This document shows positions 18,231 through 61,897 of a stretch of DNA of 64,000 nucleotides, piece after piece. The position numbers and the translations under genes are program-made. The stretch lies in the NCBI GenBank assembly GCA_907163375.1, contig CAJQUW010012972.1, positions 186,001 through 250,000 of the forward strand, written 5' to 3'. The stretch is from Prostheceraeus crozeri. Its lineage: Eukaryota; Platyhelminthes; Polycladida; Euryleptidae. The first letter of the stretch is position 1. Each line of letters opens with the position of its first letter. The notes under the pieces are model-generated. The model was not told the origin of the DNA. It saw nothing but the letters and a program-made list of their open reading frames with translations, and made no database searches.

Positions 18231-18255
18231 TTTAAAAGATAAAATAAATGTTTTA

Positions 18256-20317: not shown

Positions 20318-20410
20318 TTTTATAAGAAATAATTTGACTTTTTGTTATTCTCACAGACAGAAAAAAAATTTTTACTAAAATATAATTTTAGAATGTTACT
20401 AAATATAATT

Positions 20411-20932: not shown

Positions 20933-20976
20933 TTTTTAGGATTAAATTTGTCTTTTGGGAAAAAATATTTACGATT

Positions 20977-21065: not shown

Positions 21066-21067
21066 GT

Positions 21068-21955: not shown

Positions 21956-22001
21956 TTTTAAAACAATAAAAAATAAAATTTTTTCTAATAAAAATAAAAA
22001 A

Positions 22002-23375: not shown

Positions 23376-23394
23376 TATTATAGAACATTATATG

Positions 23395-23645
23395 CTAAAA
23401 CTTAATAGAAAATACCAAAATATTCGATAAATATATTTTCATATGTAATAAAATTTTTAGATGTAATAAGTTTTTAGATGTAATAAGTTTATAGATGTAA
23501 TAAATTTTTTAGATGTAATAAGTTTATAGATGTAATAAGTTTATAGATGTAATAAGTTTATAGATGTAATAAGTTTTTAGATAGAATAAGTTTTTAGATG
23601 TTATAAATTTTTTAGATGTTATAAAATTTTTAGATGTAATAAAAA
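23395..23645. repeat. AT-rich tandem array between convergent genes
   Basis: Units of about 19 bp built on AGATGTAATAAGTTT and variants repeat about ten times between the clamp-like gene and the polymerase gene. There are no spacers, so this is not a CRISPR array. Confidence 0.8.
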
Positions 23646-25321
23646 AATTATTATTCCCACGTGTCATCATCATCACTTAAATTACTCTCACAGATGATTG
23701 TTTGAAATATTTCAGCTTGAATATCTTCTCCGTTATAAGGTAACATAATTTCATTTTCATCTGGTGCTTGACGTTTAAGAATATTTATTTGACCAGAAAA
23801 TTTTTTTTCTTCAGTATTATTATTTTTATCAGGAATACTAATTCCAGTTTCTAAAGATCTTTTCCATGGTTTATTAACTGTAGTCGATAATGTTTTCCCC
23901 GAATATAATTTTAGAAAATCTTCTACTTTTACTTTATCTTGTGAATATCCTTTGAATGTTTTCTTTTCACTAAGTCTCCCTTGTTCATCTACAGTAATAC
24001 AGTATTTTACTTTAGGTGCAATAAACATTGCAAAAATAATTCCACCATTTCCATAATCATTTTTCCCTTGACACAATTCTCCTCCAACATATCCAGCAGC
24101 GTCTAATTTATTAAAGAGCTCATTGGAAATATATATTGAATCAGTATCTGTATAATGAATGTATTTTTCTTTGAAACCATTAATTTCTAAAATAAAGTTA
24201 TTCATGATTCTTCTAGAGTGAGAAAGAATGAAAGAACCTAAGTGTGATGGCATGAATGACGTCTTCCCATCTTTTACAATATTAGTTTTGAGAAATTCAT
24301 CATCTTCCATTTCTACTTTCGCTAAATATTGTTCATCATTTAATTTTTCATAATCTTTTACTTCTTGAGTGAAATTTTTTCTCAATGTATTCTCATTCCA
24401 TAAATGATATTTAGTGGTTATATCTTTTTGCACAGTTTTGCCATATAGCGAATTCATCAATAATTTAATTAACTCATCACCTACAGTATTTCCTTCTGTT
24501 TTATATCTTTTTCTCAAATTAAAAAGTTTTTCAATATAATTTCGAAATGGTGAAACTTGATAATTTTTTTCATAAATTATACCATCAGTAATATGTAAGA
24601 TTTTCCACCCACATCTAACAATTTCTTGTATGTCAACAGAAGTTAATACATCATAACATATACCATTTCTAAACCTGATTACTTTTACATGAGAATTATT
24701 ATTTTGATTTTTAACTTTATCTTTAATAGGAACTGGTTGGAAAAACATATCATTCGGATATTGAAACACAACAGAGAATATTCCAGTTTTAGGTCTAAAT
24801 GTTTGATTATTAAATTTATATACTATTTCCCGCTCTTCTTCTTGACGAAATTTTCTAGCTGATTCAGCTTTAGGGTATTCTGAATTTTCATCATACATAG
24901 CTGATGGATATAAAGATGTTGCATCAAAAGCCATTAGAAATTCATTTTTTTGTTCAAGTAGTTGATTTGAAATTTTCTTACAAATTTCAGTTTTATCTCC
25001 TAAATCTCGATACTGTTTCATTAAATCTATTAAATTATTTCCAGGGGACAAAGCCCCACCAGCGTAGCGACCAGGTAAATACTGTTTTAATATTGGTAAC
25101 AAGATGCTACAAAATGGCGATATGTATTTTCTTATATTTGCTGAAACTCTTCCACCTTTAACAGATTTTCTAATATAATTTCTAGCCCATAAATCTATAT
25201 GAGAATGAATATTTATATTGTCATTTTGTACGCTTTTCATCCAACCGTTAAATGTTAAAGCAGAGGATGTCAAATTAGTAGTTATATCTTCACCAACTAA
25301 ATCTTGCATAACATTATTATA

Positions 25322-26732
25322 CGAGGGGTGTTCAAATATGAACGGGAATTTTTGAAAACAATTTAATTAAGCATGAAAAGATGACATTCTATTTGCATCA
25401 AATTTCACAAGACAGCAGTTCACTTCTCAATGTAATCACCAGCAATGTCTACACATTTTCTCCATCGATCTGGGAGTGACTTGATGCCATTCTCGAAGAA
25501 GGACTTCGGTTGTTGGTTCATCCAGTTTTGCACAACACTTTGGACTTCGGCATCACTTTGGAATTTCTTGCCTCCGAGAAATTCTTTCAACGGACCAAAA
25601 AGATGATAATCAGACGGAGCTAAGTCTGGACTGTATGGAGGATGGGGCAACACGGTCCATTTCAATTGTTCCAGTGTCTCGCGGGTAAGGGCAGCTGTGT
25701 GAGGCCGGGCATTGTCTTGAAGGAAGATGACGGATGACTGCGACTTTCTTCTCTTTCCTCTGATGGCAGGTTTCACATCTTCTGTTAAGAGACTCGAGTA
25801 GTACTGCGCGTTGATAGTCTTGCGACCATGAAGAAAGTCAATGTGCAGAACACCTTTGAAATCCCAGAATATTGTAGCCATTACCTTTCCTGCAGAAGCA
25901 GTGGTTTTCGCCTTTCGAGGAGGAGGTGAGTCGGGATGTCTCCACTGCATGGACGCCCTCTTCGACTCGGGAGTTGAATGATGAACCCAGGTTTCATCAC
26001 AGGTTACGATTGCTTCGAGAAACTGCGATCCTTCATCTTCATAGCGCCGGAGAAGCTGTTGGCAGACATCAACACGCTTTTCTTTTTGCTCATCCGTAAG
26101 AAGTCGGGGCACCCAGCGTGCAGACACTTTACTGAATCCAAGTTCTTGGTGAATGATGTGTTCAGCACTTCCAATACTGATACCAACTTCTTCGGAGATT
26201 TCACGGACTGCGATGCGACGATTGTTCAAGATCAATTGCTCCACCTGCTCTGTGGTTTCTGGTGTTACTGATGTCCTTGGTCGTCGTGGATGTGGCTGAT
26301 TCTCAACTCGATCACGACCTTCCCGGAATTCTTTGGCCCAACTGTAGACTCTTGTCTTCGACAGACAATCTTCTCCAAACTGTGTCTGGAGTCTGGTGAA
26401 TATCTCCGATGGCGATACACATTCAGCTGTTAAGAACTTAATGATGATGCGCTGACAAATGCTGGCAGGAACTTCTTGTTCAGACATGACTGCAATGAGA
26501 GAGTGACTGACTGACAAGTGATTATTATCGTCACAAACAAAAGTGAGCAATGCTTCATCGCTCTCTTTCATTGCATTCGCAGCTGTGACGACGTGATAGT
26601 TGCTGAACAGCGTTCAGAAATCAATCACGGATGTTGAAACATCGCTTAGTGAATTTCTAATGTCAAAATTGTGCTTTCTAATTCAGGTAATGAGATAATA
26701 ACAAATTCCCGTTTATATTTGAACACCCCTCG
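25322..26732 (-). mobile_element. Complete mariner-type transposon, 1,411 bp
   Basis: Terminal inverted repeats of about 30 bp begin CGAGGGGTGTTCAAATATGA and are flanked by the TA duplication (25320-25321 and 26733-26734). It contains one intact transposase gene. It is the youngest insertion in the nest. Confidence 0.95.
25420..26571 (-). CDS. Mariner transposase
   Basis: The frame is 383 codons; an internal ATG (26484, 'MSEQEVPAS') gives about 354 aa, closer to the usual mariner length. The N-terminal half has two helix-turn-helix segments and a linker ('RPRTSVTPE'). The catalytic triad is D,D34D: 'TCDETWVHH', 'LQDNARPHTA' and 'YSPDLAPSDYHLF'. No stop or frameshift is seen, so the enzyme may be active. 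It would cut and paste at TA. Confidence 0.95.
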   Translation of the reverse strand: MKESDEALLTFVCDDNNHLSVSHSLIAVMSEQEVPASICQRIIIKFLTAECVSPSEIFTRLQTQFGEDCLSKTRVYSWAKEFREGRDRVENQPHPRRPRTSVTPETTEQVEQLILNNRRIAVREISEEVGISIGSAEHIIHQELGFSKVSARWVPRLLTDEQKEKRVDVCQQLLRRYEDEGSQFLEAIVTCDETWVHHSTPESKRASMQWRHPDSPPPRKAKTTASAGKVMATIFWDFKGVLHIDFLHGRKTINAQYYSSLLTEDVKPAIRGKRRKSQSSVIFLQDNARPHTAALTRETLEQLKWTVLPHPPYSPDLAPSDYHLFGPLKEFLGGKKFQSDAEVQSVVQNWMNQQPKSFFENGIKSLPDRWRKCVDIAGDYIEK

Positions 26733-28595
26733 TATTTGTAGATACAAAAAGCTAAAGAAAGAATATCGTTAACTAAATATGCTCTCCATTCATTTTCTTT
26801 TTCTTTATAATTTTCATGTGTTATGTCTCCAATTTCATAATTTAATTTACACACATTCGTAGGAATTTTAAAATTCTCACACCATTTAGAAAGACTTGTT
26901 TTTACATGTTGATAACTACATTTCATTATAATAGTTTGAAGTGCTAATTTACCTGAAGGTGAATCTTTTTTCATATTGTTTTTAAATCTAAAAGATTTTT
27001 GAATGTATCTACTAACACATTCAGTTGTATAAGGATTTTGTAATGAAGCAGTCAATATTCCTCTTGAAGTTTTAAGAGGCGGTTTAGATAATTTAAAATT
27101 AGCTTTTATCGGAAAATAGGAATCAAAACCTGATGAATTGTGAGCTATTAAAGTTACTCTAGAATAATTAAATTTTCCAAGAGTTTTAAAAAATTGATGG
27201 ATCGGACATACGTCCTCTGGGTTTCCCCCGATCGAACATTCATCATCCTCAGTTCTCGTAAATATTTTCACACAATTTTGAAGTTTATTAAATTCTAATT
27301 CAGTTAAATTATTATACTCATTAATCTGTTTTTTAAGTTTTTTAATTTCATCTTCATCTTTTGATCGTTTAATTTTAATCATATCACTTAGCAAACGTGT
27401 TTCTAATTCTTTCAATCTTTGTTTCGGTAAACAACATATAAATTTATTAAAATTAATAGCTCCTACAGCGTAAGGAATAGGATGAGCTGTTGAACAGTTA
27501 GGATCGGGAAAAGTTTCGAGATCCCAAATATATGTTGAACCATAGTCAATTTTTTTCTTTGTTATGATTTTATATGGACGCGTTGTTAGATTTTCATCAG
27601 TAACTGTTTTATATATGGGTTTGAAATTATTTTCAATTTCTCTAATAGCTTTTAATTTATGAGATTTATTAATTAAACAATAGTGACCAATTGTTGAACC
27701 TGCGTGAAAATAATTGTAATAAACATAATTATGAAACGTTTCAATTCCTCTAGGATTTAAATGACGATTGGCAGGACTATAATATTGAACACATTCTCCA
27801 AAATATTTATTGAATTGAGAAAATTTACAGTTTGACATTACTCCTGTTCTGGATGTGGCTTTCTCTTTATATAAAAAATTATTAAACATTTCTTTCATCA
27901 TTTCTCCTTGTTCTTCATTAAAACCTCGTAAAACATTATAACATTTAATAAAACAAAAATCTTCAGAAGGAATATAACAATATTCACCGAAATATTCTTT
28001 GATTCTATATTTCATATTAATCCCTGCCCCTCTATGCGATCTTTGTACTAACTTCATTCCAAAATCTTCATATTTAATATTACCTGTAAAAATCCATTCG
28101 TTAGCATCGGATTTCTCATCCAGATTCGAAAACCATGTTTCAAATGATTTTTTATTATAGAAGGTTACGTAAAAATTTTGAATTATATTTTCCTGATCTT
28201 TAACAACTTTTCCAAGTAAATTAATAATTTTACCATTTGCTAAAAGTTTCCGCATATCATTTACTACATTAATAAAAGATACATTTTCATATTTAATTTC
28301 ATTTGGATTAAATAAATTACATAAATCATCACCAAGTTCATCCTTAATTCTATCATCAAAAAAGATATCAGTAATAGGGATTTCTAATATTTCTTTTGTT
28401 CCACTTTTCTGTTTTTTAGTATTACGTCTAATACTACGCCTAGTACGTTTCTGTTTTTTAATACGTTTACTACGTTTACTATGTTTAATTTGCGCATCAA
28501 ACTCAGCAATTTGTTTCTTGATTAATTCATCAATCCTAGACGTTTGTCCGAGAGACATTTCACGATTCATATTTTTTAAAAGAAAAAATGAATTT

Positions 28596-28925
28596 TTACA
28601 TAGAACCTCGGTTCCGTTTTTGCATATACACAGGAATATGTAATTGATGTAATGTTTCTAATTCATGTGCTGTTAAATGTTCTTTCTTAACCAACCACCA
28701 TAAATTATTATACGCCAAAAATACTCGGAAACTTCTTAAACAAAGTGGAAAGTCTTTTGTTTTAACACACGGTTTAATACCATGTTTTGTTTTATAATCT
28801 GTAACGAGCGCTACGTATTTATGATGATAATAAAATCTAACTTCTTTCTTCGAATTTACAGGATTTGTAGGATGACGATAATCTTTTAAAACTGGTACAT
28901 GCTCTATCTTATAATCATTCAACAT
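28596..28925 (-). CDS. Hypothetical protein, 109 aa
   Basis: A short Tyr/His/Lys-rich protein between polymerase and ATPase, preceded by AAAATATG. The segments 'VRFYYHHKYVALVTDYK' and 'SFRVFLAYNNLWWLVKKEHL' are aromatic and may form a compact beta-helix fold. No family is recognised. GAACC-TC-GGTTC, resembling the hairpin at the protease stop, overlaps its last codons. Confidence 0.5.
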   Translation of the reverse strand: MLNDYKIEHVPVLKDYRHPTNPVNSKKEVRFYYHHKYVALVTDYKTKHGIKPCVKTKDFPLCLRSFRVFLAYNNLWWLVKKEHLTAHELETLHQLHIPVYMQKRNRGSM

Positions 28926-29004
28926 ATTTTATTTTTTTAATTAACAAAAAATTTATAAGAAAAAATTGTTCGATCACTCCTCGAAAATATTTTCTATAAC
29001 TCTT

Positions 29005-29772
29005 TCACTCCTCGAAAATATTTTCTATAACTCTTTCATGAATTTTTTTATCAATATTAATTGTGATAAATCCATAATCTTTTGACCAAGCATTGTTACA
29101 CGATTGTTTAAATTCATCTTTATTTCTTACACATAAATCTCTTAACAAATCACTTAAGTTTCTTGCATTTATTTCAAATAGTATAAATATATTTGCATTC
29201 TTTCTAATAACACTTCCGTCTAATGAATACATACTTTGTGTTAAATAAAATACACTACAGTTATTATGTCTACCTCTTGTGAAATAATTTCTCTGAACTG
29301 ACTGATTTCTATCATTAACACAATCATCAAAAATTACACAATGTTTCATTGTTTTATCTAGTTTACTAGGATCTTGCATATTACCACTATCATCTATTAA
29401 TTGTATTTTTATATGCTTATTTTTATTAGATTCTACTAACTGATTATTTTTTGTTGCTTCTTCACACCACGAACTTATTTCTTCTTCATCTTCAGATTTT
29501 TCATATTCTTTGAATAATGAAGCAATTGCAGTTTTTTTAAGATTATTTTCAAATCCATATTTTGAAAATTGATAGACGGGTTGTTCTGCTGTTGTTGTAT
29601 AAATTATAAGATTGTTATAATCCAAAAAATTTGGAGTCGTTAAAATTTTAAATAATAGATATGTTTTTCCACATCCTGATCTTCCACAAATAACTGACAA
29701 AACTTTATTAGATAAATTTGGATGATGATTAAATTTAAGTTTTTTTTTATTTAATGGAGGTAGTTCACTCAT
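29005..29772 (-). CDS. ATP: A32-like packaging ATPase of C
   Basis: The 255-aa protein has Walker A 'CGRSGCGKT' near residue 30, Walker B 'CVIFDDCV' near 147 and 'YLTQSMY' near 178, the motif order of FtsK/HerA-type viral genome-packaging ATPases. It is preceded by TTAAAAAATG. The last about 27 bp including the stop are duplicated directly downstream (28978-29034). Intact. Confidence 0.88.
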   Translation of the reverse strand: MSELPPLNKKKLKFNHHPNLSNKVLSVICGRSGCGKTYLLFKILTTPNFLDYNNLIIYTTTAEQPVYQFSKYGFENNLKKTAIASLFKEYEKSEDEEEISSWCEEATKNNQLVESNKNKHIKIQLIDDSGNMQDPSKLDKTMKHCVIFDDCVNDRNQSVQRNYFTRGRHNNCSVFYLTQSMYSLDGSVIRKNANIFILFEINARNLSDLLRDLCVRNKDEFKQSCNNAWSKDYGFITINIDKKIHERVIENIFEE

Positions 29773-29853
29773 TTTTTAATAAAAAATTTTTTTTTATTTT
29801 TTTTATTTTTTGTTTCTAAAGAAGAAGAAAATTAAACTTCTCTAGCTTCGCGT

Positions 29854-29870
29854 GGGAGTTTATACCTCCC
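29854..29870 (-). terminator. Hairpin over the minor-capsid stop codon
   Basis: GGGAG and CTCCC form a 5-bp stem around a 7-base loop that contains the TAA stop (29862-29860). It is another GC-rich island in AT-rich DNA. Confidence 0.5.
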
Positions 29871-30648
29871 GAACCAAAAGATCTATCATAATCTCTTCAC
29901 CTCCAAAATTTATTTCTTGTCCTTTTTCATCAGTGATTCTAATGCCAATGTTGTTAATAGTTTTCCTTGTAATAGGAAAATATATTAATGTTTGTGGAAT
30001 TACATTTAATCTATAACCAATGGGTACAGTAAAAGCTGGAAAACTGAATATTAAATTTGATAATTTACCATTTATATATCCTCCTTCAATAATGTCACAA
30101 TGTACAACAATTGAATTTATTTCAGTTATTTTTGGAATCTTCTCACCTAAATGATAACCTTGACTATAGGTTTGTTTATTAAATCCTAATAGCTTTGACA
30201 ATGATTTATCATGATTAAAATCAACTTGATGATTTTCGTCTAAAGTAAGAGAAAATTTATTAACTGCCGGTTCAACTGCAAAATGTAATTGTTTCTTATC
30301 TTTAAATGGTATACCTAAATGTCTCTTAATTTCATTTGATATTGATTCAACTTCGTAAGAACCAGGAAGAAAAGTTAGTATTTTCCATGTTTTACCTTTA
30401 TCAGTAGAATATCTAAATTGATCATTCACATCTTTGATAACGTTTTGAATAGTGTTAAATGTAGAGAAACTAGTCAATGCAATTTGATAATTTTTATTTT
30501 GTTCCAAATGTAGAATGGGTTCTAAATTACAAGTGTGTGATGAAGTAGTTGTTATAATTTTTAACGTCGTACTAAATTTTGATGAACCCAAAATCTCTGT
30601 CAAATTTTCTAAATGATTATTAATTTTGTCTAAATCTGCTGAACACAT
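29860..30648 (-). CDS. mCP: Penton-like minor capsid protein of C
   Basis: The 262-aa protein ends with 'LIYFPITRKTINNIGIRITD' followed by 'GEEIMIDLLVREV', the typical C-terminal strands of Polinton single-jelly-roll (penton) proteins. The N-terminal part has 'NKNYQIALTSFSTFNTIQNV', related to the 'WEVGV' block of the A/B minor capsid proteins. It would occupy vertices of the capsid. Start preceded by TTTAAAAATG. Intact. Confidence 0.75.
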   Translation of the reverse strand: MCSADLDKINNHLENLTEILGSSKFSTTLKIITTTSSHTCNLEPILHLEQNKNYQIALTSFSTFNTIQNVIKDVNDQFRYSTDKGKTWKILTFLPGSYEVESISNEIKRHLGIPFKDKKQLHFAVEPAVNKFSLTLDENHQVDFNHDKSLSKLLGFNKQTYSQGYHLGEKIPKITEINSIVVHCDIIEGGYINGKLSNLIFSFPAFTVPIGYRLNVIPQTLIYFPITRKTINNIGIRITDEKGQEINFGGEEIMIDLLVREV

Positions 30649-30754
30649 TTTTAAACTAAAAAAATTAAATAAATATTATAGATAAAAATCGTTAGAAAAA
30701 AATATAGAATAAAAATCATAGATAAAAATCATATATTAAAATCATAGATAAAAA

Positions 30755-31582
30755 TTAGAAACAACATATTTCAGCTACACTTTTATAATCCTCTTCATTT
30801 AGAATCTTCTTTTCTAACAGTCTTTTCAATATAGCATGAATTTCATTGAAACTAGAATTATGTCCTTCTTTTATTGCAGATATTAAAATATTTAATCTAT
30901 TTAGTAATTCTTGTGGATCATCTGGTAAAAATATGGTTGTTTCTGTTTTCTGTTTTTCAGATAAACCTTTTCCTACTTTAACTCCCGTTGATAATAAATT
31001 TTCTAATTGTTTATAACGTCTAAGAGTTTTTACTGCACCAACTCTATCTAACATAGCTTTATATTTTATAAGATCATCTACAGCATAATTATTTAAATCT
31101 GCTCCTCTTAAAAGATTAACAAAATTTCTATCTAAATTAAAAGGAGATTTATCTGGTGAAAAAATTAAACCTCGAAAAGGTTGTGGAAATATTTCTTTTT
31201 GTCCGAGATAAAATCTAGGTATTGTTTTTCCATCTATAAATGAAATAGAATGTTCAAATTGCATAGATTTTGGTAATTTCTTATTAATGTTTGATTCTAG
31301 TAATCCATAGTCATCTAATATAGTTTTGTGCTCTGGATCTGTTATATCAATTTGTTTATCATTATTTGTAAGTTCTTTTTCAAGAGTTTTAAATGGTTTC
31401 ATAGTTTTCTCAAAATCAGTTTTTACTTGCTCGGTTTGCTGCATTTTTTCAAACATATCAGATTGAATACCAGCTTTTATCATTCTATGTTGAAGATGAT
31501 TTTCTTTCATAATTTTTCTTTGTTTTATTAACTCTTCTAATTGTTTTATTCTTTTAAAATTATCAGCTCTAATTTTATCCAT
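30755..31582 (-). CDS. Virion-associated protein, about 275 aa
   Basis: The preferred start is the internal ATG at 31582 (TTTTAAAAATGG), matching the start context of other C genes. The N-terminal 80 residues are coiled coil ('RIKQLEELIKQRKIMKEN'), the middle has 'FYLGQKEIFPQPFRGLIFSP' and the C-terminus is helical. Position beside minor capsid gene and ATPase resembles the 230-aa A/B gene, but sequence similarity is not visible by eye. Confidence 0.5.
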   Translation of the reverse strand: MDKIRADNFKRIKQLEELIKQRKIMKENHLQHRMIKAGIQSDMFEKMQQTEQVKTDFEKTMKPFKTLEKELTNNDKQIDITDPEHKTILDDYGLLESNINKKLPKSMQFEHSISFIDGKTIPRFYLGQKEIFPQPFRGLIFSPDKSPFNLDRNFVNLLRGADLNNYAVDDLIKYKAMLDRVGAVKTLRRYKQLENLLSTGVKVGKGLSEKQKTETTIFLPDDPQELLNRLNILISAIKEGHNSSFNEIHAILKRLLEKKILNEEDYKSVAEICCF

Positions 31583-31703
31583 TTTTAAAATATAATATTT
31601 GAATTTTGTGGTAACATTGGAATACAGCAAAAACATTTTACTGAACAAATTATTTTTTTATTGCTTTGTTGTTTGACATCTTTTCGTTTAAAGTTTTCTC
31701 GTT

Positions 31704-32354
31704 TTAAGTTTTTTTTAATAAAGTTTTGCTTAAATTTTCGCTTAAAGTTTTTAGCTCTTCTAAAAAAATTTTGTCATTTTCTTCATTAGAAATTTTACCA
31801 TCACTCGAAATTTTGCCATCCTGTTTATTCTTATCATCAACTTTTTCGGACTTTAAATGAAATGGCGTTTTATTAGCTTCATTAGCTATTTGATCAAATT
31901 TTTCAATCTCATCTAACGTAATAACATTATCATCACATACTCTTTGAAAGTAGTAATGTAGTTTATCATAGACTTCTTTAATATGTAAATGCTTAGTTTT
32001 TAATGATTTTCGTTTCTTAGTTATTAAAGATTTATCTAACATTGTAACAAGTGAAGTTGCAAAAACACCCGTACCTGTTAAAGCTGTAGCAACTACTGGA
32101 ATTACTAAAACACCTGAAGATATAACAATTGTTAAAACACCTAAACTTATTGTTAAGAATATGCCAATTCCTTGTGTTACATTCTTAACTTTAGACCATC
32201 TCTTTCTTAATTTATTATAATGTTCTAATCTAAGTAATAATTGCGATTCCTTATCTTTCATATAACGTACTCTATCTTTGTGTTTTGCAATATCCATTTC
32301 ATATGATAATGAAGGATATATTCTTGCGGTTTCATCCACTTTTGTTTCTTCCAT
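31704..32354 (-). CDS. Two-helix membrane protein
   Basis: Start at 32354 (TTTAAAAATGG). After a charged N-terminus with 'RLEHYNKLRKRWSKVKNV' there are two hydrophobic segments around residues 65-115 rich in Gly, Val, Ile, then a cytosolic-type charged tail with 'DDNVITLDEIEKFDQIANE', which looks like a degenerate EF-hand loop. Related two-span proteins occur in many Polintons. The first part lies in the right terminal repeat and is therefore partly duplicated at the left end. A role in membranes or entry is possible but not shown. Confidence 0.55.
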   Translation of the reverse strand: MEETKVDETARIYPSLSYEMDIAKHKDRVRYMKDKESQLLLRLEHYNKLRKRWSKVKNVTQGIGIFLTISLGVLTIVISSGVLVIPVVATALTGTGVFATSLVTMLDKSLITKKRKSLKTKHLHIKEVYDKLHYYFQRVCDDNVITLDEIEKFDQIANEANKTPFHLKSEKVDDKNKQDGKISSDGKISNEENDKIFLEELKTLSENLSKTLLKKT

Positions 32355-32817
32355 TTTTAAAGAAATATTTTTAGTCACATGTTATATTTTAAAAACCTAA
32401 AAGATGGATAAAATTCATGAATTTGAAATTCTCAACTTTTATGATTTTCGGTGTCCGGTTTTACATGACCTGGAACGGTCATGATTTAAGCGAGAAAATT
32501 GTAATTCACAAATTTTGAGATTCTTAACTTTTATGATTTTTTCGGTGTCCTGCAACGGTCATGATTTAAGCGGGGGAGAAAATTGTAATTCTCAAATTTT
32601 AAGATTTTGAAAAATTTGAAAAATTGGGTATTTTTAAAAACGCTTAAATTTTCGCCCTTCGGCCTTCGGCCACGTGAAATTTGAAGTCTACCTAAATTTT
32701 TGAAATTTTGAAATTTTGATTTTTTTGAAAAAACCCGCAAAAGTGTGACATCCGGCGTAAGCGAAGCGAAGCAAAGCGAAGCGAAGCGTCGCGCCGGATG
32801 TCACACTATATACTACT
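32204..32817. repeat. Right terminal inverted repeat of C
   Basis: Reverse complement of 14706-15319, ending CTATATACTACT. The tip palindrome is kept with one mismatch (arms 32743-32757 and 32791-32806). Confidence 0.9.
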
Positions 32818-34324: not shown

Positions 34325-34591
34325 TTAGGTTTGGTCGATTCCGTTGAGAGAGACTTGTAATCTCTCTATGTCAGCGGCATCGACCTCCTCTACTATAAGC
34401 TGACTGCTAGAGGGCGGTATATACCCCCACTCTGTTGAATTGGCATCATCGTCAGTTGTTGATGAGCCAATTTGAGCAAGACTGTTATATACTCGCTCTC
34501 GCTCCTCCATCTGTAGAATCTCAATAAATAAATTTCTCGGTCTAAGCCGAGGCTTGTCAGGAGAGCTGACTGTCGTCTTAGGTGTTTTCAT
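34325..34591 (-). CDS. Accessory protein of A/B family, 88 aa
   Basis: Homologue of 41792-42058 in B. Both start 'M-x-TP' with a Ser/Pro tail, then 'LRPRNLF', a helix with 'ERVYNSLAQIG' and a conserved 'TEWGYIP'. No domain recognised. It is intronless with a very short leader after a TATA-like box and ends in a histone-type hairpin, like a replication-dependent histone gene, although the protein is not a histone. Confidence 0.6.
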   Translation of the reverse strand: MKTPKTTVSSPDKPRLRPRNLFIEILQMEERERVYNSLAQIGSSTTDDDANSTEWGYIPPSSSQLIVEEVDAADIERLQVSLNGIDQT

Positions 34592-34748
34592 GATGGAGTA
34601 TAGAATGAAAATGAAAGAGAGGCAATGGTTTACATACCTCTATGATACAAAGACATGACTCAGTCTTTCTAATTATGTGATAGATTCAGTCAGACCGAAG
34701 TATGTCCAGAGCAAACCACGAGGAGGTACTATTACTCTTGCTCCGTGT

Positions 34749-34764: not shown

Positions 34765-34799
34765 GTTTGAGGCGTTTTCGGGATCAAAGCGATCCTACT

Positions 34800-35939
34800 G
34801 CTGATGTAAAGACTCTGAAAGGAAAATAATAGGAGATTCGATGCGTAAGGGAAATGATTATGTTGAAGCAATTTACTGGGAACTTTCTTTCGGACTTTTC
34901 GGACGACGAAGTCCTCATGCTCGCCAGTGATGTCCATGTTCATACGCAGACATCGGACTCCGTCGCCCTCATAGCACTGCTGCGTCTGATTGGGGTCGCT
35001 GGTGATGGTTGGGGCGTCGCACACATTATTTTCGAAGAGGGGAAGATGGAATTCATACACTCTTCTTTTTCTACACATCTCACGCTCATGCAATCGCTCT
35101 ACTTCAGCCACCAACCTCTTGTTCACGCCCTTCACTTCCTCTGTTTCCTTCACCACGCTTCGCATCCGATCTATCTCATCATCCTTCCTTAACAAATTCG
35201 CCTGCAGACTACTCACCAAACTTGCTTTCTTCATCAGCTCACTCCTTTCCACCATCCACTCTTTCTCCTTCTGCCTCATACTTTCCAACTCTTCTCTCGT
35301 CACCTTATGCCCTTCAACCTTCGCAGTCAACTTCTCATTCCGCATCACCAATACTTTATTTTTCTCCTCAACCGTCCTCAATCGATTCTTCATCTTCACA
35401 TATTCATCCCTTGTGTTCCCTTCCTCCCTCCGAGAGGCGATGATGCTGCCAACGGTTTACCCACTTCCTTTCCCTCATCCTTCCCCTTCTCCTCAAGATC
35501 ATTAATGTTCCCAAACAATTCCTCCAACACGTCATCCAAATCAACATCAACATCAGGCTTCTTGATGTCACCTCTCAACTCCACTTCTTCCTCACTCATA
35601 CCCTCATCAGTTGCCTTGGTAACACCTTTCTTTCCCACCGCACCCTCAATCGTCGCCACTGCCACTCTCACCTCTTCCATATCCATCAAAACTCCCTCAA
35701 ACCACGACTTAAACCCCTGCATACTAATATTGCCACTAGGGCACTGGCTATGGTTCCTAATGAACTCTACATCACTCCCATCCTCACATACTACCTTGCA
35801 CACACACCCTCAACAACACTTTCCTCACATGCTCGCCCACCGTCCCCTCTTTGATGTGCTTTTTGAGCTCGCTGCCTCTGGCAATACGGCTACAGCTACG
35901 CTTGCCGATGAGCATTCGCGCATTGATCATTTTAGTCAT
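34800..35939 (-). pseudogene. Coiled-coil accessory gene of A, frameshifted
   Basis: Counterpart of the 409-aa B gene. Starting at ATG 35939 the N-terminal Cys/His region is recognisable, then the frame shifts near 35800 and again near 35400. An acidic linker ('DVDVDLDDVLEEL') and a long coiled coil follow, with the conserved C-terminal block 'YEFHLPLFENNV' and 'GDGVRCLRMNMDITGEH'. The reading frames with Ser/Pro-rich products on the other strand are antisense shadows. Confidence 0.6.
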
Positions 35940-36674: not shown

Positions 36675-37088
36675 CGCTGATTCCAAATCTGGTCTCAGTT
36701 TTCTCGTCCGATGCTTCGTTCGCCCGCTGGAGCCCAAAACACAAAACTCAACCTCTGACGGCTCTCTAACATGATCAAAAGTCTCAATGTCACTCTGAAG
36801 CCTCAGCAAAGGAAGGTAGGGAGAAACTGTGCTTTCCAATGAATTTGTGGTACTCTTAGCTTTCAAACGAGCTATTGCACGACTTTCTACGATCTCTAGA
36901 ACCGAAGTTGGAAGAACGCTGCCGAGGGGGGGTCGAAGTTCTTCGTTCTTTGGCCTACGACTTTGGAAACAAGTCCCTGAGACCCAAAATTGGCCAAAAA
37001 GCTCAAATCCGCCGTCCATTTTCACGTACGAGGCTTCATTTAGCCGCTACAGTTATTTTCTCACTCAAAAACCCTCTTAAACCCATCT
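36675..37088. repeat. Right terminal inverted repeat of A (truncated)
   Basis: Reverse complement of the inner left repeat of A; similarity ends abruptly at 37088, opposite left position 3066. The outer about 225 bp are missing. Confidence 0.75.
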
Positions 37089-37816: not shown

Positions 37817-39005
37817 AGTAGTAAGCAAAACTCCACTTCTGGACCGCGCAAGATGGCCGCCATCGCTGCGTCCCCCCCCTCTGGCACGGCAGAGTGTCGT
37901 GGTCGGCCGCCGTGGTGCTTCGTGTCTGAGTCCCCCCCCCTCTGGAACGACAGAGGTTGTGGTCTGTCGTGGTGTGCGGGCCAGGTGGGTTCACAACATG
38001 TTCGCTGACTCCCCCCCCTCTGGAACGACAGAGTGTGAGACTCGAGTGAGTTGATCCGACCGCCTGGTTGACGTGGGCGACCGCCAGGATTAGTCTTGAG
38101 GCTATAGTGTGTGATGTTTTTGGTGCAATCTGCTGAATGTTGGGTTGTAAAATGGGTTGTTTCGAGTGGAAGGAGTGGTCGGATGAGAAAACGGAGGTCG
38201 GATTCGTGTTCAGCGTGAAATTCTGCATCGGTAGGGTGAGTTTCAAGGCAATCGGTGAGAAAAAATTTTTCTTCAAAATTTTAACAGAGTTAGAATTTGG
38301 GACGTTTTGGTGTGTAGCGTCCAAACGAAGCATCGGATGAGAAAACGGAGGTCAGATTCGGATTCAGCGTGAAATTCTGCATCGGTAGGGTGAGTTTCAA
38401 GTCAATCGGAGAGAAAAAATTTTCGGCTGACGTCCCCCCCCCCTGGACAGCTTGCTTCCAGTGGACGGATTTTGTCGTGCGATAGCTCGTTTGAAAGCTA
38501 AGAGTGAGACAAATTCAGTGAAAGAATCGGCTTGTTTCTATCTGTCTTCGTTCAAAAGTTAGAGCGGTTACAAGATTTTAGGTCGGAGCTCGCTCACCTG
38601 AAAAAATCCTAAGTGTCAGAGTGACTTTGTATGGGTAAAATTTTGAAAATTTTCCAAAGTGTGGAATTTCGACCTGGGACCGTCACCAAAACATTTTTCA
38701 TCAAATTTCACTGACCCCCCCCCCGACAGCAACCTTCTAACTTTGGTTCTAGTGGACGGATTTTGTCTTACAGCTACTCGTTTGAAAGAGGAGAAAAAAC
38801 TGCTCGACAACATTTTTTGTTGCGAGTCAATCGGACCAGCCGTTCACAAGTTAGAGCGGTTACAAGATTTTAGGTCGGAGCTCGCTCACCTGAAAAAATC
38901 CTAAGTGTCAGAGTGACTTTGTATGGGTAAAATTTTGAAAATTTTCCAAAGTGTGGAATTTCGACCTGGGACCGTCACCAAAACATTTTTCATCAAATTT
39001 CTCTG
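37817..39005. repeat. Left terminal inverted repeat of B with repeated C-tract sites
   Basis: About 1,190 bp, matching 60709-61897. Three blocks of C7-C9 followed by TCTGG(A/C)ACG(A/G)CAGAG lie near 37867, 37931 and 38009, and further C-tracts near 38428 and 38716. Units of about 150 and 290 bp are tandemly duplicated inside. The recurring reading frames here ('MWNFDLGPSPKHF') come from these repeats. Confidence 0.85.
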
Positions 39006-39640
39006 AACGAGGGGGGGGAGGGGGGGTCGGTGAAATTTGATGAAAAATGTTTTGGTAAAGGTCCCAGGTCGAAATTCGGAAGTTTTAAATTTTTCAAAAT
39101 TTTCACCACACTGGAGCTCTCACACTTAGGAATTTTTTCACTTGTGGCATGTTACATGGACATGTGCTGGCGGACCAACTTCCCGTGGTCATATGAGAAT
39201 GGTTCAGGTGTCATATTGTAAAGAATGATGAGACAAATCGTTTGCAACAAACCGCATGTCGCTACGATGAATACTTTCGGAGATAGAGCCATTTTAAGTT
39301 TTCTTCCGAGCATATATAAACCCCCGACAACGTAAGTCTGATCACTTCATCGAAAGACGAGGTAAGCGACGGTCGTCGCTCTGAGCTCCCGATATCGGGT
39401 GCAAAGGACTCTATCTTTTGAAGTAGGCAAGCTATCTTGCTACTTCAAAGTTTGTATGATAGAGTTTGATAGTGTCTTTACTACTGATAAAATTTTTTAA
39501 AAGTAGTATGAGTAGTAAAATGCGGAATTTTTTAAAAATTCTTAATTTTCAGTTTTTTCAAAGTTTTAACATATAGACTAAGGTTTTCAAGTATCCTGAG
39601 TTCAAATCTGCTATCAGATTTGACATTTAACTAAGTCTAA

Positions 39641-39847
39641 GGCAGCTTTGAGGGGTTAGATCCCAGCTACTGATCACTACCTTTGACTCGGCGTTCCTGT
39701 TACCACTTCGGGGCAGTGACAATGATGTCTTCAGCTGTAAAGAGCGGGTATCGGGGAAGATCTCTCACTTCCCTAGTGATCAGTACAAGGCCTTCGGGCT
39801 GTCGACGGGATCGAGTGCCACTCACTACACTCACATCTATCATTCCT
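39641..39847 (+). ncRNA. Candidate structured RNA, intronic repeat copy 1
   Basis: About 207 bp, repeated at 39957-40163. TACTGATCACTA (39668-39679) can pair over 12 bp with TAGTGATCAGTA (39774-39785). Inside and next to it are GGAAG...CTTCC and GGCC-TTCG-GGCT. In copy 2 the only change in the long stem gives a G-U pair. No protein frame is conserved. The class of RNA is unknown; it could also be a DNA element. Confidence 0.4.
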
Positions 39848-39956
39848 CACTAAGTGTTGATATTATGTTGAATGTTGACTAAGTTGAATGTTGAATGATG
39901 ATATTATGTTCTAGGCTGTATACTACATTCAAATCTGCTATCAGAAATTTAACTAA

Positions 39957-40163
39957 GGCAGCTTTGAGGGGTTAGATCCCAGCTACTGATCACTACCTTT
40001 GACTCAGCGTTCCTGTTACCACTTCGGGGCAGTGACAATGATGTCTTTAGCTGTAAAGAGCGGGTATCGGGGAAGATCTCTCACTTCCCTAGTGATCGGT
40101 ACAAGGCCTTCGGGCTGTCGACGGGATCGAGTGCCACTCACTACACTCACATCTATCATTCCT
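39957..40163 (+). ncRNA. Candidate structured RNA, intronic repeat copy 2
   Basis: Direct repeat of copy 1 with few substitutions; long stem and TTCG hairpin are preserved. Confidence 0.4.
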
Positions 40164-40265
40164 GACTAAGTGTAATGCTTTAGGAATATGACTGTACTAC
40201 ATGATTCAAAACTTATACTAATTTCATTATCTTACAGTTAACGAGATATCTGAGTACTGACAAAA

Positions 40266-41495
40266 ATGGTCAATAACGATAGAAATAAGAAGTTTCACAT
40301 AAAAATGTGCGTATGCGGTCGAATCAACCGCCGAGACGGTCTCAGGGACCACATAAGGAAGGCAGGGGCCGACCACATGGTTATCCTGAATAGGGTTGCC
40401 TGTGTGAAGTGCAGGGTGCTGTTGGTTGTTGGGCAGGAGGCCGAGTTTTATCGGAGGCATGGTGAGTGTGTAGGAGGGTTGGTGACTGATTTGAGATTTG
40501 TGGAGTTGATGAATGCTGAGAAGGAGCGAATGTTGGAGAAAGAGGCCAAGAATGTTGTTGAGAATGCTAGTGGGAATGTTGTTGAGAATGCTAGTGGGAA
40601 TGCTGTGGAGAATGCTAGTGGGAATGCTGTGGAGAATGATGAGTTGGCGAGAGCGGTTGCGTCGTTGGAGGGTGAGATTGGGCGAAAGAGAGTGCTTGAG
40701 AGTGATGGTGAGGATGATGTGGATTTAGATAGGGAGCGTGTGAGGAAGCGTGTGAGGAAGTTGAGCTCTTCGTCGTCGGAGGTGTCGAACATCGTCATCA
40801 CCGACCCCCCGAAGAGCTCATCTTCCCCAAAAGTGAAGAGTGGTGGGATTCGTGTGCAGTCGGCGAGGTGGTTGAAGGATGAAGAGAAGAGGCATGTTTC
40901 GCAGCAGATGGCGCATGATTTGTTGGTGAATAAGTATGAGAGTTTGAAGAAAGTGAAGGATGAAGTTGTGAAGGAGTTGGATGAGTTAAAAAAGAAGGAA
41001 CTGAAGTCGAAGGAGGTGGCGGATGAAAACATTAGAATGAGGCGTAGTGTGACTGATTTGAAGAAAAAGACGCGAGAGTTGGAAGAGAAGAATGATGAGT
41101 GTGAGAAGAGGGCGAGTGCTGCGGAGAGAAGAATGAGAGATGCAGAGGCGAAGTTTGAGGAGATGATGAAGGAGATGAGTGTGTTGAGAGCGAAGAATGT
41201 TGAGTTGGAGAGGACTGTGGCTCGGCGGGGTGATGAGAGGCAGGCGTGTGAGAAGTTGGAGCGCATGAGGGATGAGTGGGAACGTGTGAATGAGGATCGT
41301 TTGTTTGAGTTTCACATCCCTATTCGGGATAATCATTTGGCCGGCCAAGTACTCGTCAATCAAAATCTGGACGAGTCAATTATTTGCTACAACGGTCATC
41401 CGAGCAAGAAGTGTCTCCATGCAAGCTTACGAATGCGCGGCCATCTCCACAAATTTTCAATCAGGAAGCCCGCGAGACTGCCTAAGGATGACTAA
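40266..41495 (+). CDS. Coiled-coil accessory protein, 409 aa
   Basis: The N-terminus has Cys/His pairs ('MCVCGRINRRDGLRDHIRK', 'CVKC', 'HGEC') that could bind zinc. Residues about 90-122 are four units of VVENASGN encoded by 27-bp repeats, then an acidic/Ser stretch, a long heptad coiled coil (about 195-355) and a conserved C-terminal block 'LFEFHIPIRDNHLAGQV'. The A copy shares this architecture. The stop is followed by a 60-base intron (41500-41559) and a histone-type hairpin at 41612. Function unknown; a structural or regulatory oligomer is likely. Confidence 0.65.
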   Translation: MVNNDRNKKFHIKMCVCGRINRRDGLRDHIRKAGADHMVILNRVACVKCRVLLVVGQEAEFYRRHGECVGGLVTDLRFVELMNAEKERMLEKEAKNVVENASGNVVENASGNAVENASGNAVENDELARAVASLEGEIGRKRVLESDGEDDVDLDRERVRKRVRKLSSSSSEVSNIVITDPPKSSSSPKVKSGGIRVQSARWLKDEEKRHVSQQMAHDLLVNKYESLKKVKDEVVKELDELKKKELKSKEVADENIRMRRSVTDLKKKTRELEEKNDECEKRASAAERRMRDAEAKFEEMMKEMSVLRAKNVELERTVARRGDERQACEKLERMRDEWERVNEDRLFEFHIPIRDNHLAGQVLVNQNLDESIICYNGHPSKKCLHASLRMRGHLHKFSIRKPARLPKDD

Positions 41496-41611
41496 CTTGG
41501 TAAGTGAAAAGCAAATAAGATAGTATATCCTATTCTAATACATATCATTTTCATTGCAGATCTTTGCCTGCCTTCACCACCCCATCAATTTACTCCCGAG
41601 AACGAACCATC

Positions 41612-41627
41612 GGCTCTCTTAAGGGCC
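41612..41627 (+). terminator. Histone-type 3' hairpin of the coiled-coil gene (B)
   Basis: GGCTCT-CTTA-AGGGCC followed by ACC, then GGGGCAAGACATG, which contains a CAAGA block where histone genes have their purine-rich downstream element. About 75 bases on is CAGTC-TTCG-GACTG. The complete module (about 145 bp, 41597-41735) is repeated at 42072 and 42590. Confidence 0.75.
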
Positions 41628-41791
41628 ACCTAGGGGCAAGACATGATAGAACCTCCACGCGGTTTGCCCTGGGCAGTCTTCGGACTGGCGAATACTATCA
41701 TTAAGTTGAATCTGCTATCAGTCAACTTGAACGTTGTGTCGCGTTAGAGGGGTATATAAACCACTGCCTCTCATTTCATTTCATTTCAATC

Positions 41792-42058
41792 ATGGAGACG
41801 CCGAACAGTCAAGTCAGCTCTCCTCGCGGACCGCAGTTAAGGCCGCGAAATTTATTTGAGGAGTTCGTCAGGCTAGAGGAGCAAGACAGAGTTTTTAATA
41901 ATCTTGCTCGGATTGGCAATCCGATGACAGCAACTGCTGTCAATCCAACGGAATGGCGCTACATTCCAATTTTTAGTCATGTGCCAGTTAGTGTGGAAGT
42001 CGACAGTGCTACCAAAGAGAGAGTCTTTGACTCTCTCAGCAGAATTGGTAGGGTGTAA
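41792..42058 (+). CDS. Accessory protein of A/B family, 88 aa
   Basis: Intronless, with TATATAAA at about 41752 and ATG 40 bases later. The N-terminus 'METPNSQVSSPRGP' is Ser/Pro-rich, followed by 'LRPRNLFEEFVRLEEQDRVF' and 'NPTEWRYIPIF', with a C-terminal repeat of the helix motif ('ERVFDSLSRIG'). The two 'RVFxxLxRIG' helices suggest an internal duplication. No family recognised. Ends with a histone-type hairpin 30 bases after the stop. Confidence 0.65.
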   Translation: METPNSQVSSPRGPQLRPRNLFEEFVRLEEQDRVFNNLARIGNPMTATAVNPTEWRYIPIFSHVPVSVEVDSATKERVFDSLSRIGRV

Positions 42059-42087
42059 GATGACGCTACTCCCGAGAACGAACCATC

Positions 42088-42103
42088 GGCTCTCTTAAGG
42101 GCC
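42088..42103 (+). terminator. Histone-type 3' hairpin of the 88-aa gene (B)
   Basis: Same 16-base hairpin as 41612, 29 bases after the stop codon, followed by ACCATGGGGCAAGACATG. Confidence 0.78.
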
Positions 42104-42235
42104 ACCATGGGGCAAGACATGATAGAACCTCCTCGCGGTTTGCCCTGGGCAGTCTTCGGACTGGCAAATACTATCATTAAGTTGAATCTGCTATCAGTCA
42201 ACTTGAACATTATGCAGTCGATTGCTATCCCTGAA

Positions 42236-42310
42236 GCATTCTGATTCGCTGTTGAGCAATTCATTGTTGAAAACCCTATATAAGCTAGAAGATTGTAGCG
42301 CTTCTCATTC
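42236..42310 (+). promoter_or_regulatory. CCAAT-like/TATA promoter of the 83-aa gene
   Basis: ATTCTGATTCGCTGTTGAGC, ATTCATTGTTGAAAA and CTATATAAGC precede ATG 42325, in the same order and spacing as at 13985-14065. The CCAAT core is changed in this copy. Confidence 0.55.
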
Positions 42311-42324
42311 AATTTGAAGTCACG

Positions 42325-42576
42325 ATGGAAGCGACATCTGCCGACAATATTCCCGTCTTCACTGATGAAGACAACGGCATTCCCGAGTTCGTCATCCTCG
42401 ACGAGTGGGATGAGGATGAGAAGAAGGGGAAGATCAAGAGGATCATTTGGACGGATGAGGTGTGGACTCCGAATACCACTCGCATCCGAAAGGTGCCAGA
42501 TGCACCACCACGGCTTAGGCGGTATAGGGTATACGACAACCTAAGCGTCATACCCATTGACTATTCCAGTCAATAG
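42325..42576 (+). CDS. Small accessory protein, 83 aa
   Basis: B member of the family seen at 13675-13914 and 14077-14250. An acidic N-terminal half ('FVILDEWDEDEKKGK') precedes 'IIWTDEVWTPNTTRIRKVPD' and a Tyr/Arg-rich end. No known domain. Unlike the A member at 13675 it ends in a histone-type hairpin (42607), so within the family the 3' end type has changed. Confidence 0.6.
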   Translation: MEATSADNIPVFTDEDNGIPEFVILDEWDEDEKKGKIKRIIWTDEVWTPNTTRIRKVPDAPPRLRRYRVYDNLSVIPIDYSSQ

Positions 42577-42606
42577 TCAAATTCACGTCCCCGAGAACGA
42601 ACCATC

Positions 42607-42622
42607 GGCTCTCTTAAGGGCC
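42607..42622 (+). terminator. Histone-type 3' hairpin of the 83-aa gene (B)
   Basis: Third copy of the same hairpin in B, 30 bases after the stop codon. Confidence 0.78.
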
Positions 42623-60276: not shown

Positions 60277-60708
60277 TTTAGTTGGATAATAGAATAGGGA
60301 ACTAGAGAGAGAGAGAAAATGTGCGTCCGTCACTCGTGTGATTCAACGATGGAATGATTCTCACTGTGGAAGGCTCGCTATTTATAAAGAAATGCTTGAT
60401 TCTCATTGGATGATGATCCTCATTGGACAATAACATCAAGCTGATTCCAAATCTGAAATCCGTTTTCCAATCCGATGCTTCGTTTTGAAGCTACAGCCCA
60501 AAACGTCCCAAATTCTAACTCTGTCGTTTTTCGCCAATGTCCCAAAATCTTAAATGGCGTCTCACATCTAAGCGAAGACAGATAGGAACAAGCCGATTCT
60601 TTCAGTGAATTTGTCTCACTCTTAGCTTTCAAACGAGCTATGGCACGACAAAATCCGTCCACTAGAAGCCAAAATCGAAGCGAGCTGTCCAGAGGGGGGG
60701 GGTCAGTG

Positions 60709-61897
60709 AAATTTGATGAAAAATGTTTTGGTGACGGTCCCAGGTCGAAATTCCACACTTTGGAAAATTTTCAAAATTTTACCCATACAAAGTCACTCTG
60801 ACACTTAGGATTTTTTCAGGTGAGCGAGCTCCGACCTAAAATCTTGTAACCGCTCTAACTTGTGAACGGCTGGTCCGATTGACTCGCAACAAAAAATGTT
60901 GTCGAGCAGTTTTTTCTCCTCTTTCAAACGAGTAGCTGTAAGACAAAATCCGTCCACTAGAACCAAAGTTAGAAGGTTGCTGTCGGGGGGGGGGGTCAGT
61001 GAAATTTGATGAAAAATGTTTTGGTGACGGTCCCAGGTCGAAATTCCACACTTTGGAAAATTTTCAAAATTTTACCCATACAAAGCCACTCTGACACTTA
61101 GGATTTTTTCAGGTGTGCGAGCTCCGACCTAAAATCTTGTAACCGCTCTAACTTTTGAACGAAGACAGATAGGAACAAGCCGTTTCTTTCACTGAATTTG
61201 TCTCACTCTTAGCTTTCAAACGAGCTATCGCACGACAAAATCCGTCTACTGGAAGCAAGCTGTCCAGGGGGGGGGGGACGTCAGCCGAAAATTTTTTCTC
61301 TCCGATTGACTTGAAACTCACCCTACCGATGCAGAATTTCACGCTGAATCCGAATCTGACCTCCGTTTTCTCATCCGATGCTTCGTTTGGACGCTACACA
61401 CCAAAACGTCCCAAATTCTAACTCTGTTAAAATTTTGAAGAAAAATTTTTTCTCACCGATTGCCTTGAAACTCACCCTACCGATGCAGAATTTCACGCTG
61501 AACACGAATCCGACCTCCGTTTTCTCATCCGACCACTCCTTCCACTCGAAACAACCCATTTTACAACCCAACATTCAGCAGATTGCACCAAAAACATCAC
61601 ACACTATAGCCTCAAGACTAATCCTGGCGGTCGCCCACGTCAACCAGGCGGTCGGATCAACTCACTCGAGTCTCACACTCTGTCGTTCCAGAGGGGGGGG
61701 GGAGTCAGCGAACATGTTGTGAACCCACCTGGCCCGCACACCACGACAGACCACAACCTCTGTCGTTCCAGAGGGGGGGGACTCAGACACGAAGCACCAC
61801 GGCGGCCGACCACGACACTCTGCCGTGCCAGAGGGGGGGGGGACGCAGCGATGGCGGCCATCTTGCGCGGTCCAGAAGTGGAGTTTTGCTTACTACT
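60709..61897. repeat. Right terminal inverted repeat of B
   Basis: Reverse complement of 37817-39005, ending TTGCTTACTACT. G-tracts of 8-10 bases mark the same repeated sites (about 60696, 60986, 61268, 61692, 61772, 61832). Confidence 0.85.

Follow-up and report, generated by a model that had tools for sequence, protein, structure and literature searches.

In human embryonic kidney (HEK) cells, the reduced level of an unspliced reporter transcript was restored by engineering a histone stem-loop in front of a delta ribozyme (PMC4456446). The non-polyadenylated end of this laboratory construct is stabilised by the hairpin. In Caenorhabditis elegans, histone mRNAs end 3–6 nucleotides (nt) past their hairpin (PMC1924863). 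Ribozymes of the hepatitis delta virus (HDV) type cleave at the first nucleotide of stem P1, and constructs without a spacer between P1 and P2 were inactive (PMC4908430); those of R2 elements process 5' ends (PMC12203849), and the HDV-like theta ribozymes of phages have their cleavage site at most 5 nt from a tRNA (PMC10879173). The present analysis concerns 64,000 nt of DNA from the polyclad flatworm Prostheceraeus crozeri (GCA_907163375.1, contig CAJQUW010012972.1, positions 186,001 to 250,000, forward strand), referred to as the window, in which two related Polintons of opposite orientation, elements 1 and 3, carry five genes followed by a module that appears to have the same parts, in the same order, as the reporter. 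It is likely, in our judgement, that short genes of these two Polintons obtain mRNA ends without poly(A) by self-cleavage; this would leave the host's stem-loop binding protein (SLBP) a hairpin of histone type to bind.

A preliminary description of the window had placed five such hairpins after stop codons, and each of them was recovered at its position and strand:

41612-41627, plus strand: stem-loop B1 (GGCUCU CUUA AGGGCC), 3' of the gene of 409 amino acids (aa); Rfam RF00032, 18.9 bits
42088-42103, plus strand: stem-loop B2, 29 nt past the stop codon of the 88-aa gene; RF00032, 18.1 bits
42607-42622, plus strand: stem-loop B3, 30 nt past the stop codon of the 83-aa gene; RF00032, 18.1 bits
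34280-34295, minus strand: stem-loop A1 (GGUCUU UUUA AAGACC), 29 nt past the stop codon of the element-1 88-aa gene; RF00032, 29.5 bits
34749-34764, minus strand: stem-loop A2 (GGCUCU UUUA AGGGCC); RF00032, 26.7 bits

The shape attributed to them was found in all five: a 6-bp stem with GG and CC at its base, a U-A closing pair, a 4-nt loop with U in third position, and AC (ACC or ACA) after the stem. The first loop base is U in A1 and A2 and C in B1–B3, and the resulting CUUA loop of element 3 is also present in four C. elegans H2B genes (PMC1924863). Stem, loop and flank are close to those of genuine histone genes. Among the copies, two pairs of the stem are altered on both sides and one pair on one side, which bears out the compensatory changes that had been claimed. 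The distance of about 30 nt between stop codon and hairpin stands for the 88-aa (29), the 83-aa (30) and the element-1 88-aa gene (29); A2 lies at 30 nt only once an inferred intron (34876-34815) is removed, and B1 at 116 nt, or at 56 nt with the inferred intron 41500-41559 taken out. A search with a histone rule (GG, three Y-R pairs, a U-A closing pair, a 4-base loop and CCAC), defined after the sites were known, retrieved exactly these five sites in the window and nothing in 200 dinucleotide shuffles, on both strands. The five show no mismatch to a looser hairpin pattern, for which, with three mismatches allowed, 2.76 matches are expected and at least five occur in 13 of 100 shuffles. The Rfam family of histone stem-loops (RF00032, Histone3) matched all five at 18.1–29.5 bits, with single-family E-values of about 5e-8 (A1), 6e-7 (A2), 5e-4 (B1), 1e-3 (B2) and 1e-3 (B3), obtained by dividing the listed values, which count 4227 families, by 4227. 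These results support the view that non-histone genes of Polintons are followed by stem-loops of histone type.

The conservation of the sequence extends 70 nt past the hairpin, and an HDV-like nested double pseudoknot (P1, P2, P3, P1.1, P4) can be read 3' of all five, with a predicted cleavage site 5 nt past the hairpin in A1 and B1–B3 and 4 nt past it in A2 (R1 is a covariance model described below):

41633-41701, plus strand: candidate ribozyme B1, cut predicted at 41632/41633; RF02682, 26.8 bits; R1, 23.6 bits
42109-42177, plus strand: candidate ribozyme B2, cut predicted at 42108/42109; RF00094, 27.5 bits; R1, 20.5 bits
42628-42696, plus strand: candidate ribozyme B3, cut predicted at 42627/42628; RF00094, 27.5 bits; RF02682, 26.5 bits; R1, 21.3 bits
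34206-34274, minus strand: candidate ribozyme A1, cut predicted at 34275/34274; last pair of P1 is U.U and one P1.1 pair is lost
34677-34744, minus strand: candidate ribozyme A2, cut predicted at 34745/34744; RF02682, 14.7 bits (E 4.8) in a local scan; R1, 16.5 bits

In B2, P1 is GGGGCAA/UUGCCCU, opening with a G.U wobble, and is followed by the P1-P2 spacer J1/2 (GAC) and by the P2 pseudoknot AUGAUAG/CUAUCAU; P3 is ACC/GGU with the loop L3 UCCUCGC, the CC of which forms P1.1 with the GG after P1, and P4 is CAGUC-UUCG-GACUG. The stretch after P4 reads GGC-AAAUA in B2 and GGC-GAAUA in B1 and B3; the C of this GGC junction we take to be the counterpart of the catalytic C75 (HDV numbering), the core residues being displayed by the Rfam alignments. 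The junction C (J4/2) is present in all five copies, and its role as catalytic C is assigned by homology. P1 opens with G.U throughout and has 7 bp in four copies (6 bp plus U.U in A1); P2 has 7 bp in four, with one mismatch in A2; P3 is present in all, and P1.1 has two pairs in four copies and one in A1. L3 is exact in B2 and B3, with one change in B1 and in A2 and three in A1, and J1/2 is 3 nt long in all copies except A2 (2 nt). No named stem of the element-3 copies contains a mismatch. A CAAGA block after the hairpins, which had been read as a histone downstream element and hence as a route through U7, proves to be the 5' strand of P1 together with J1/2. Because this block belongs to an HDV-like fold lying 3' of every hairpin, the 3' end of the module mRNAs is most likely made by self-cleavage of the RNA.

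What the sequences show are the two folds, their compensatory changes, and the order, spacing and orientation of the parts. Hairpin included, the named structure pairs 97.3% of 150 cells. Both-side changes occur at five of its pairs, of which two belong to the hairpin while P1, P2 and P4 have one each. For paired cells, both-side-changed pairs, both-side-changed cells and covariation score, the alignment was equalled by no shuffle out of 500, although these counts are no probabilities and overstate significance, since the B copies are 96–99% identical and the five rows are not independent; the comparison of structures rests on only two elements. When partners were slid, pairing fell to 31–47% and both-side changes to at most one. 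Without guidance, RNAalifold predicted the hairpin, P1, P3 and P4, P2 being beyond what this program can display. Rfam models, which are independent of the window, gave RF00094 matches at B2 and B3 and RF02682 matches at B1 and B3 when the whole window was scanned. A strict descriptor of the topology found the three B sites and a coding-region site at 10772, and had no match in five block shuffles of one strand. Topology without the core sequence is unspecific and is no evidence for a ribozyme, because the descriptor controls give many matches: from 19 to 31 per shuffle with one mismatch per stem, and 214 in 159 viral loci (1.44 Mb) with non-G starts.

IMG/VR was scanned with two core patterns from the window, of which the first yielded 71 loci and the second, run to obtain a comparison set, 87 loci; among the latter, 12 distinct loci parse, judged by reading, as full HDV-like pseudoknots. 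The R1 model was constructed from seven of these 12 phage ribozymes and from no window sequence (the other five fell out of register in MAFFT). Applied to the 64-kb window, R1 found B1 (23.6 bits), B3 (21.3), B2 (20.5) and A2 (16.5), with E-values from 1.6e-4 to 0.013; it missed A1 and had no other match in the window at E of 5 or less. Its best score in a control of 54 of the 71 loci (599 kb) was 13.3 bits, this control being drawn from the 71-locus scan, whereas the R1 phages came from the 87-locus scan.

The way in which such a module might work can be outlined as follows. RNA polymerase II would transcribe gene, hairpin and ribozyme together, and the ribozyme would fold during transcription as a nested double pseudoknot and cut directly 5' of P1. 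The released mRNA would consist of a cap, the coding region, a short 3' untranslated region (UTR) and the hairpin with 4–5 further nt, without poly(A), its end lying at about the site where the U7 small nuclear ribonucleoprotein (snRNP) and CPSF73 cut a histone pre-mRNA; the U7 snRNP would not be needed. The upstream product would end in a 2',3'-cyclic phosphate, which might protect it against the trimming and uridylation by which histone mRNAs are degraded once S phase is over. Host SLBP could then bind the hairpin and act in place of the poly(A) tail, both for stability and for translation, and dependence on SLBP would link the genes to cells in replication (S phase). What we infer from the arrangement is catalysis, ends that lack poly(A), the binding of SLBP and this coupling to the cell cycle. 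We lean, with less assurance than for self-cleavage at these genes, towards a natural protein-free route to eukaryotic mRNA 3' ends, through which early Polinton mRNAs would need neither the poly(A) machinery nor U7 and would behave like histone mRNAs in S phase. A ribozyme switched by SLBP was also considered; the competing pairing between the 3' strand of the hairpin and the 3' strand of P1 is possible in element 3 but impossible in A1, and the idea was set aside.

The poly(A)-independent ends that had been proposed are plausible, and no AATAAA or ATTAAA occurs within 400 nt past the stop codon of the three element-3 module genes; the same absence is seen in 8 of 18 other element-3 open reading frames (ORFs) examined and is not discriminating. 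A poly(A) signal may be able to take the place of the cassette, and vice versa, since the 79-aa homologue of the 83-aa gene in element 1, which is without a module, has AATAAA 21 nt past its stop codon.

Besides this non-discriminating absence and the near-identity of the B copies, several other results weigh against the interpretation given here. The gathering score of 34 for Histone3 is reached by none of the five hairpins, so the check suggested beforehand gave matches below threshold only, and the hairpins of B2 and A1, taken alone, are identical at just 10 of 16 positions. All HDV scores lie under their gathering cut-offs (at best 27.5 against 50 for RF00094 and 26.8 against 44 for RF02682). 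A1, in which P1 ends in U.U and P1.1 is one pair short, was matched by no Rfam HDV model in the whole-window or in a local scan, and A2 has a single mismatch in P2 and another in P4. For further pair types the alignment does not exceed the shuffles (355 of 500). The site at 10772 outscores A1, and with non-G starts the descriptor matched this site and the B sites in the window and missed A1 and A2. The R1 phages were collected with the window-core pattern, which makes that model only partly independent, and the comparison ribozymes of loci L108 and L129 are not matched by the Rfam HDV models. The fold energy of the region is ordinary (z -0.64), and the minimum-energy fold of B2 is without the hairpin, whereas its centroid fold contains it. 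Between the elements, the sequence that separates the first module from the next ATG is 79% identical, with 19 gap columns, and is as conserved as the module itself. An AATAAA lies 122 nt past the stop codon of the element-1 88-aa gene, 3' of ribozyme A1. Lastly, terminal introns are inferred in two of the five module genes, in contrast to the reporter, in which a ribozyme end with a histone stem-loop did not sustain splicing of the terminal intron (PMC4456446).

Among the alternatives, the one that survives best is that of a relic, i.e., a once functional cassette whose element-1 copies, and perhaps those of element 3 as well, have decayed; both elements look partly broken. The mismatches in A1 and A2 and the polymerase region of element 3, split across several ORFs, speak for such decay; yet the element-3 copies have kept every named stem free of mismatches, and the modules, 77–82% identical between elements 1 and 3, are better conserved than the adjacent coding sequences (64% for the 88-aa and 62% for the 83-aa gene), which makes this explanation unlikely.

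If the ends were instead ordinary histone ends, made by SLBP, the U7 snRNP and CPSF73 with CAAGA as the downstream element, the match of the hairpins to RF00032 would be accounted for, as would the position of CAAGA, 10–14 nt past the hairpin in three copies and 9–13 nt in A2. A1, however, reads CAUAA in its place, and the following 70 nt maintain P1, P2 and P4 by paired changes, needless for a U7 site. Processing of the U7 type is probably not the route at these modules, and the explanation as a whole is quite improbable.

Since 5'-end HDV-like ribozymes are known in R2 elements (PMC12203849) and a same-strand gene is close downstream of B1, B2 and A2, the ribozyme might serve the downstream transcript, as in R2 and other retroelements, the hairpin being incidental. 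After B3, however, the nearest same-strand ORF of at least 60 aa starting with ATG is at 43777 (68 aa, antisense to a 145-aa ORF), and after A1 it is 33858-33673 (61 aa), and both are unlikely to be genes. B3 and A1 close rows of genes and the element-3 88-aa and 83-aa genes have a TATATAA of their own, which argues for a role at 3' ends; with a histone-like hairpin in five cases out of five, 5'-end processing is very improbable.

That the module acts as DNA (a promoter, a recombination site or another site), its RNA folds being by-products of duplication, is extremely improbable, for the near-identical B duplicates, the equally conserved stretch up to the next ATG and the motif ATCTGCTATCAG, found just 3' of the module and also upstream of the 409-aa gene (six sites in total), are set against modules that lie on the coding strand in five of five cases and open P1 with G.U in all, pairs changed on both sides, and HDV-like core residues.

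Returning to self-cleavage as the preferred interpretation, the modules share with HDV-like ribozymes (RF00094, RF02682; drz) the nested double pseudoknot, the G.U pair at the cleavage site, an L3 of HDV type, the UGG junction, the junction of the catalytic C (GGCGAAU in B1 and B3) and a J1/2 of 3 nt (2 nt in A2). They differ from the retroelement ribozymes, which stand at 5' ends, in that they lie in a DNA transposon, 3' of genes and directly after a histone-type hairpin, with sub-threshold Rfam scores. With the 3' ends of histone mRNAs (RF00032) they have in common the 6-bp stem, its GG/CC base, the U-A closing pair, the 4-nt loop, the ACC or ACA, the short distance from the stop codon and, as predicted, an end 4–5 nt past the stem, whereas their genes are not histone genes and a ribozyme fold replaces the U7 downstream element. 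Theta ribozymes trim a folded RNA, as the modules would, in their case tRNAs of phages and not mRNAs of a eukaryotic element.

In the module, two RNA devices that are each already known are combined in a new way and in a new kind of host element. In the open-licence literature, which was searched in part and mostly without subscription journals, no description was found of a natural cassette of hairpin and HDV-like ribozyme, the reporter being the only histone stem-loop found with a self-cleaving ribozyme; no paper joining an HDV-like ribozyme to a Polinton was found in that literature either. If confirmed, the cassette would be a new means found in nature of completing an mRNA, by a pairing of parts previously built artificially, and a natural counterpart to a man-made reporter designed for the study of 3' ends. 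A DNA transposon would then join the elements that carry HDV-like ribozymes, and a selfish element would be using SLBP as a substitute for the poly(A) tail. The module also offers a signature for which other Polintons, and viruses related to them, can be searched.

As regards the viral loci, 25 parses were considered (five from the window and 20 from loci), and 12 loci were kept; L078, L079, L089, L102, L112, L120 and L154 were dropped for weak or inconsistent parses and L146 as a duplicate of L108. In two of the 71 loci, L023 and L025, a P1 is possible, and they were judged unconvincing. When seven of the 12 phage loci were scanned with Rfam, the comparison ribozyme was matched in five, at 28.7–43.3 bits, all below cut-off. 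The combined pattern of hairpin and ribozyme had no match in IMG/VR, and the looser hairpin pattern had one, in locus L159, with no ribozyme core visible. The two bases flanking P4, presumably nt 40 and nt 74 in HDV numbering, are G/G in ten of the 12 phage ribozymes and A/A in two (L108 and L129), and they are G/G in all three copies of element 3 and A/A in both copies of element 1 (L151 and A2 were read by eye). The difference between the elements fits in this way the pattern of the other HDV-like candidates. The seven dropped parses read A/A, G/A, A/G, no base, G/C, A/C and no base, so that one of the five with both bases obeys the pattern.

Two viral contigs deserve mention in their own right. 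In L156:238-677, an HDV-like match (608-677; RF02682, 41.6 bits, below cut-off) adjoins the 3' end of a transfer-messenger RNA (tmRNA) gene (238-608), an arrangement whose sequence suggests trimming of the tmRNA by a ribozyme. In L144:2849-5989, five HDV-like matches below cut-off (at about 2849, 3351, 4882, 5396 and 5919) lie on one strand, together with a Twister-sister match above cut-off at 4519 on the same strand, all within 3.2 kb.

The elements (with their terminal inverted repeats, TIRs) and the genes in question are the following:

38011-61700: element 3, Polinton with the three B modules; TIRs 38011-39006 and 60694-61700
3223-36932: element 1, Polinton with the two A modules; TIRs 3223-3799 and 36676-36932; interrupted by element 2
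14706-32817: element 2, a different Polinton; TIRs 14706-15324 and 32199-32817
40266-41495, plus strand: 409-aa coiled-coil-like gene of element 3; Pfam HAUS1 below cut-off
41500-41559, plus strand: inferred 60-nt intron (GTAAGT...TTGCAG) in the 3' UTR of the 409-aa gene
41792-42058, plus strand: 88-aa accessory gene of element 3; TATATAA at 41753
42325-42576, plus strand: 83-aa accessory gene of element 3; TATATAA at 42277
34325-34591, minus strand: 88-aa gene of element 1; 49% aa identity to the element-3 88-aa gene
34795-35393, minus strand: 3' part of the coiled-coil gene of element 1; stop codon TAG at 34797-34795, after the inferred intron 34876-34815
13675-13914, minus strand: element-1 homologue (79 aa) of the 83-aa gene; 56% identity; AATAAA 21 nt past the stop codon

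The A hairpins thus lie in a Polinton, as had been described, with the correction that this element is interrupted by another. In element 3 the features of a Polinton/Maverick were found, namely TIRs, an rve integrase with a chromodomain (rve and Chromo above the Pfam cut-offs), a protease (the Ulp1-like Peptidase_C48, 20.5 against a cut-off of 20.7) and a large size; other ORFs of it we take to be polymerase B, capsid and ATPase, Pfam giving no match for any of them. The module-bearing genes lie near one end of each element (409-aa, 88-aa and 83-aa genes in element 3, coiled-coil and 88-aa genes in element 1). No Pfam family matched the 88-aa and 83-aa proteins, whose only relatives in the protein collection were P0001–P0005, from short contigs (longest contigs 514–1767 bases); in IMG/VR no relative was retrieved with queries for the 88-aa and 83-aa proteins, the polymerase region and the capsid, and the structure predicted for the 83-aa protein was too poor for use (predicted local distance difference test, pLDDT, 44). 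At the place of the element-3 TATATAA, the sequence upstream of the element-1 88-aa gene is TATGTAAA. No hairpin and no ribozyme was found 3' of the 79-aa homologue (13675-13914), which belongs to a pair of 83-aa-family copies of opposite orientation at 13675-14277, both without a module, with inverted-repeat arms of 114 nt and 76% identity.

The motif ATCTGCTATCAG occurs at 34165, 39606, 39933, 41710, 42186 and 42705 (0.29 sites expected with one mismatch allowed); four of the five ribozymes are followed by it, its other two sites lie 5' of the 409-aa gene, and it is perhaps a promoter element. Just 5' of the 409-aa gene there are two tandem 221-nt repeats (39637-39857 and 39953-40173; 98% identical) with several CUUCGGG-like loops; their fold energy is ordinary and Rfam gave only weak, unrelated matches for them. 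The inner end of the element-3 TIR carries a long near-perfect hairpin (38966-39067; MIR7533 43 against a cut-off of 230 bits). Element 2, inside element 1, has TIR arms that are 99% complementary and harbors its own mariner-type transposase gene at 25420-26571.

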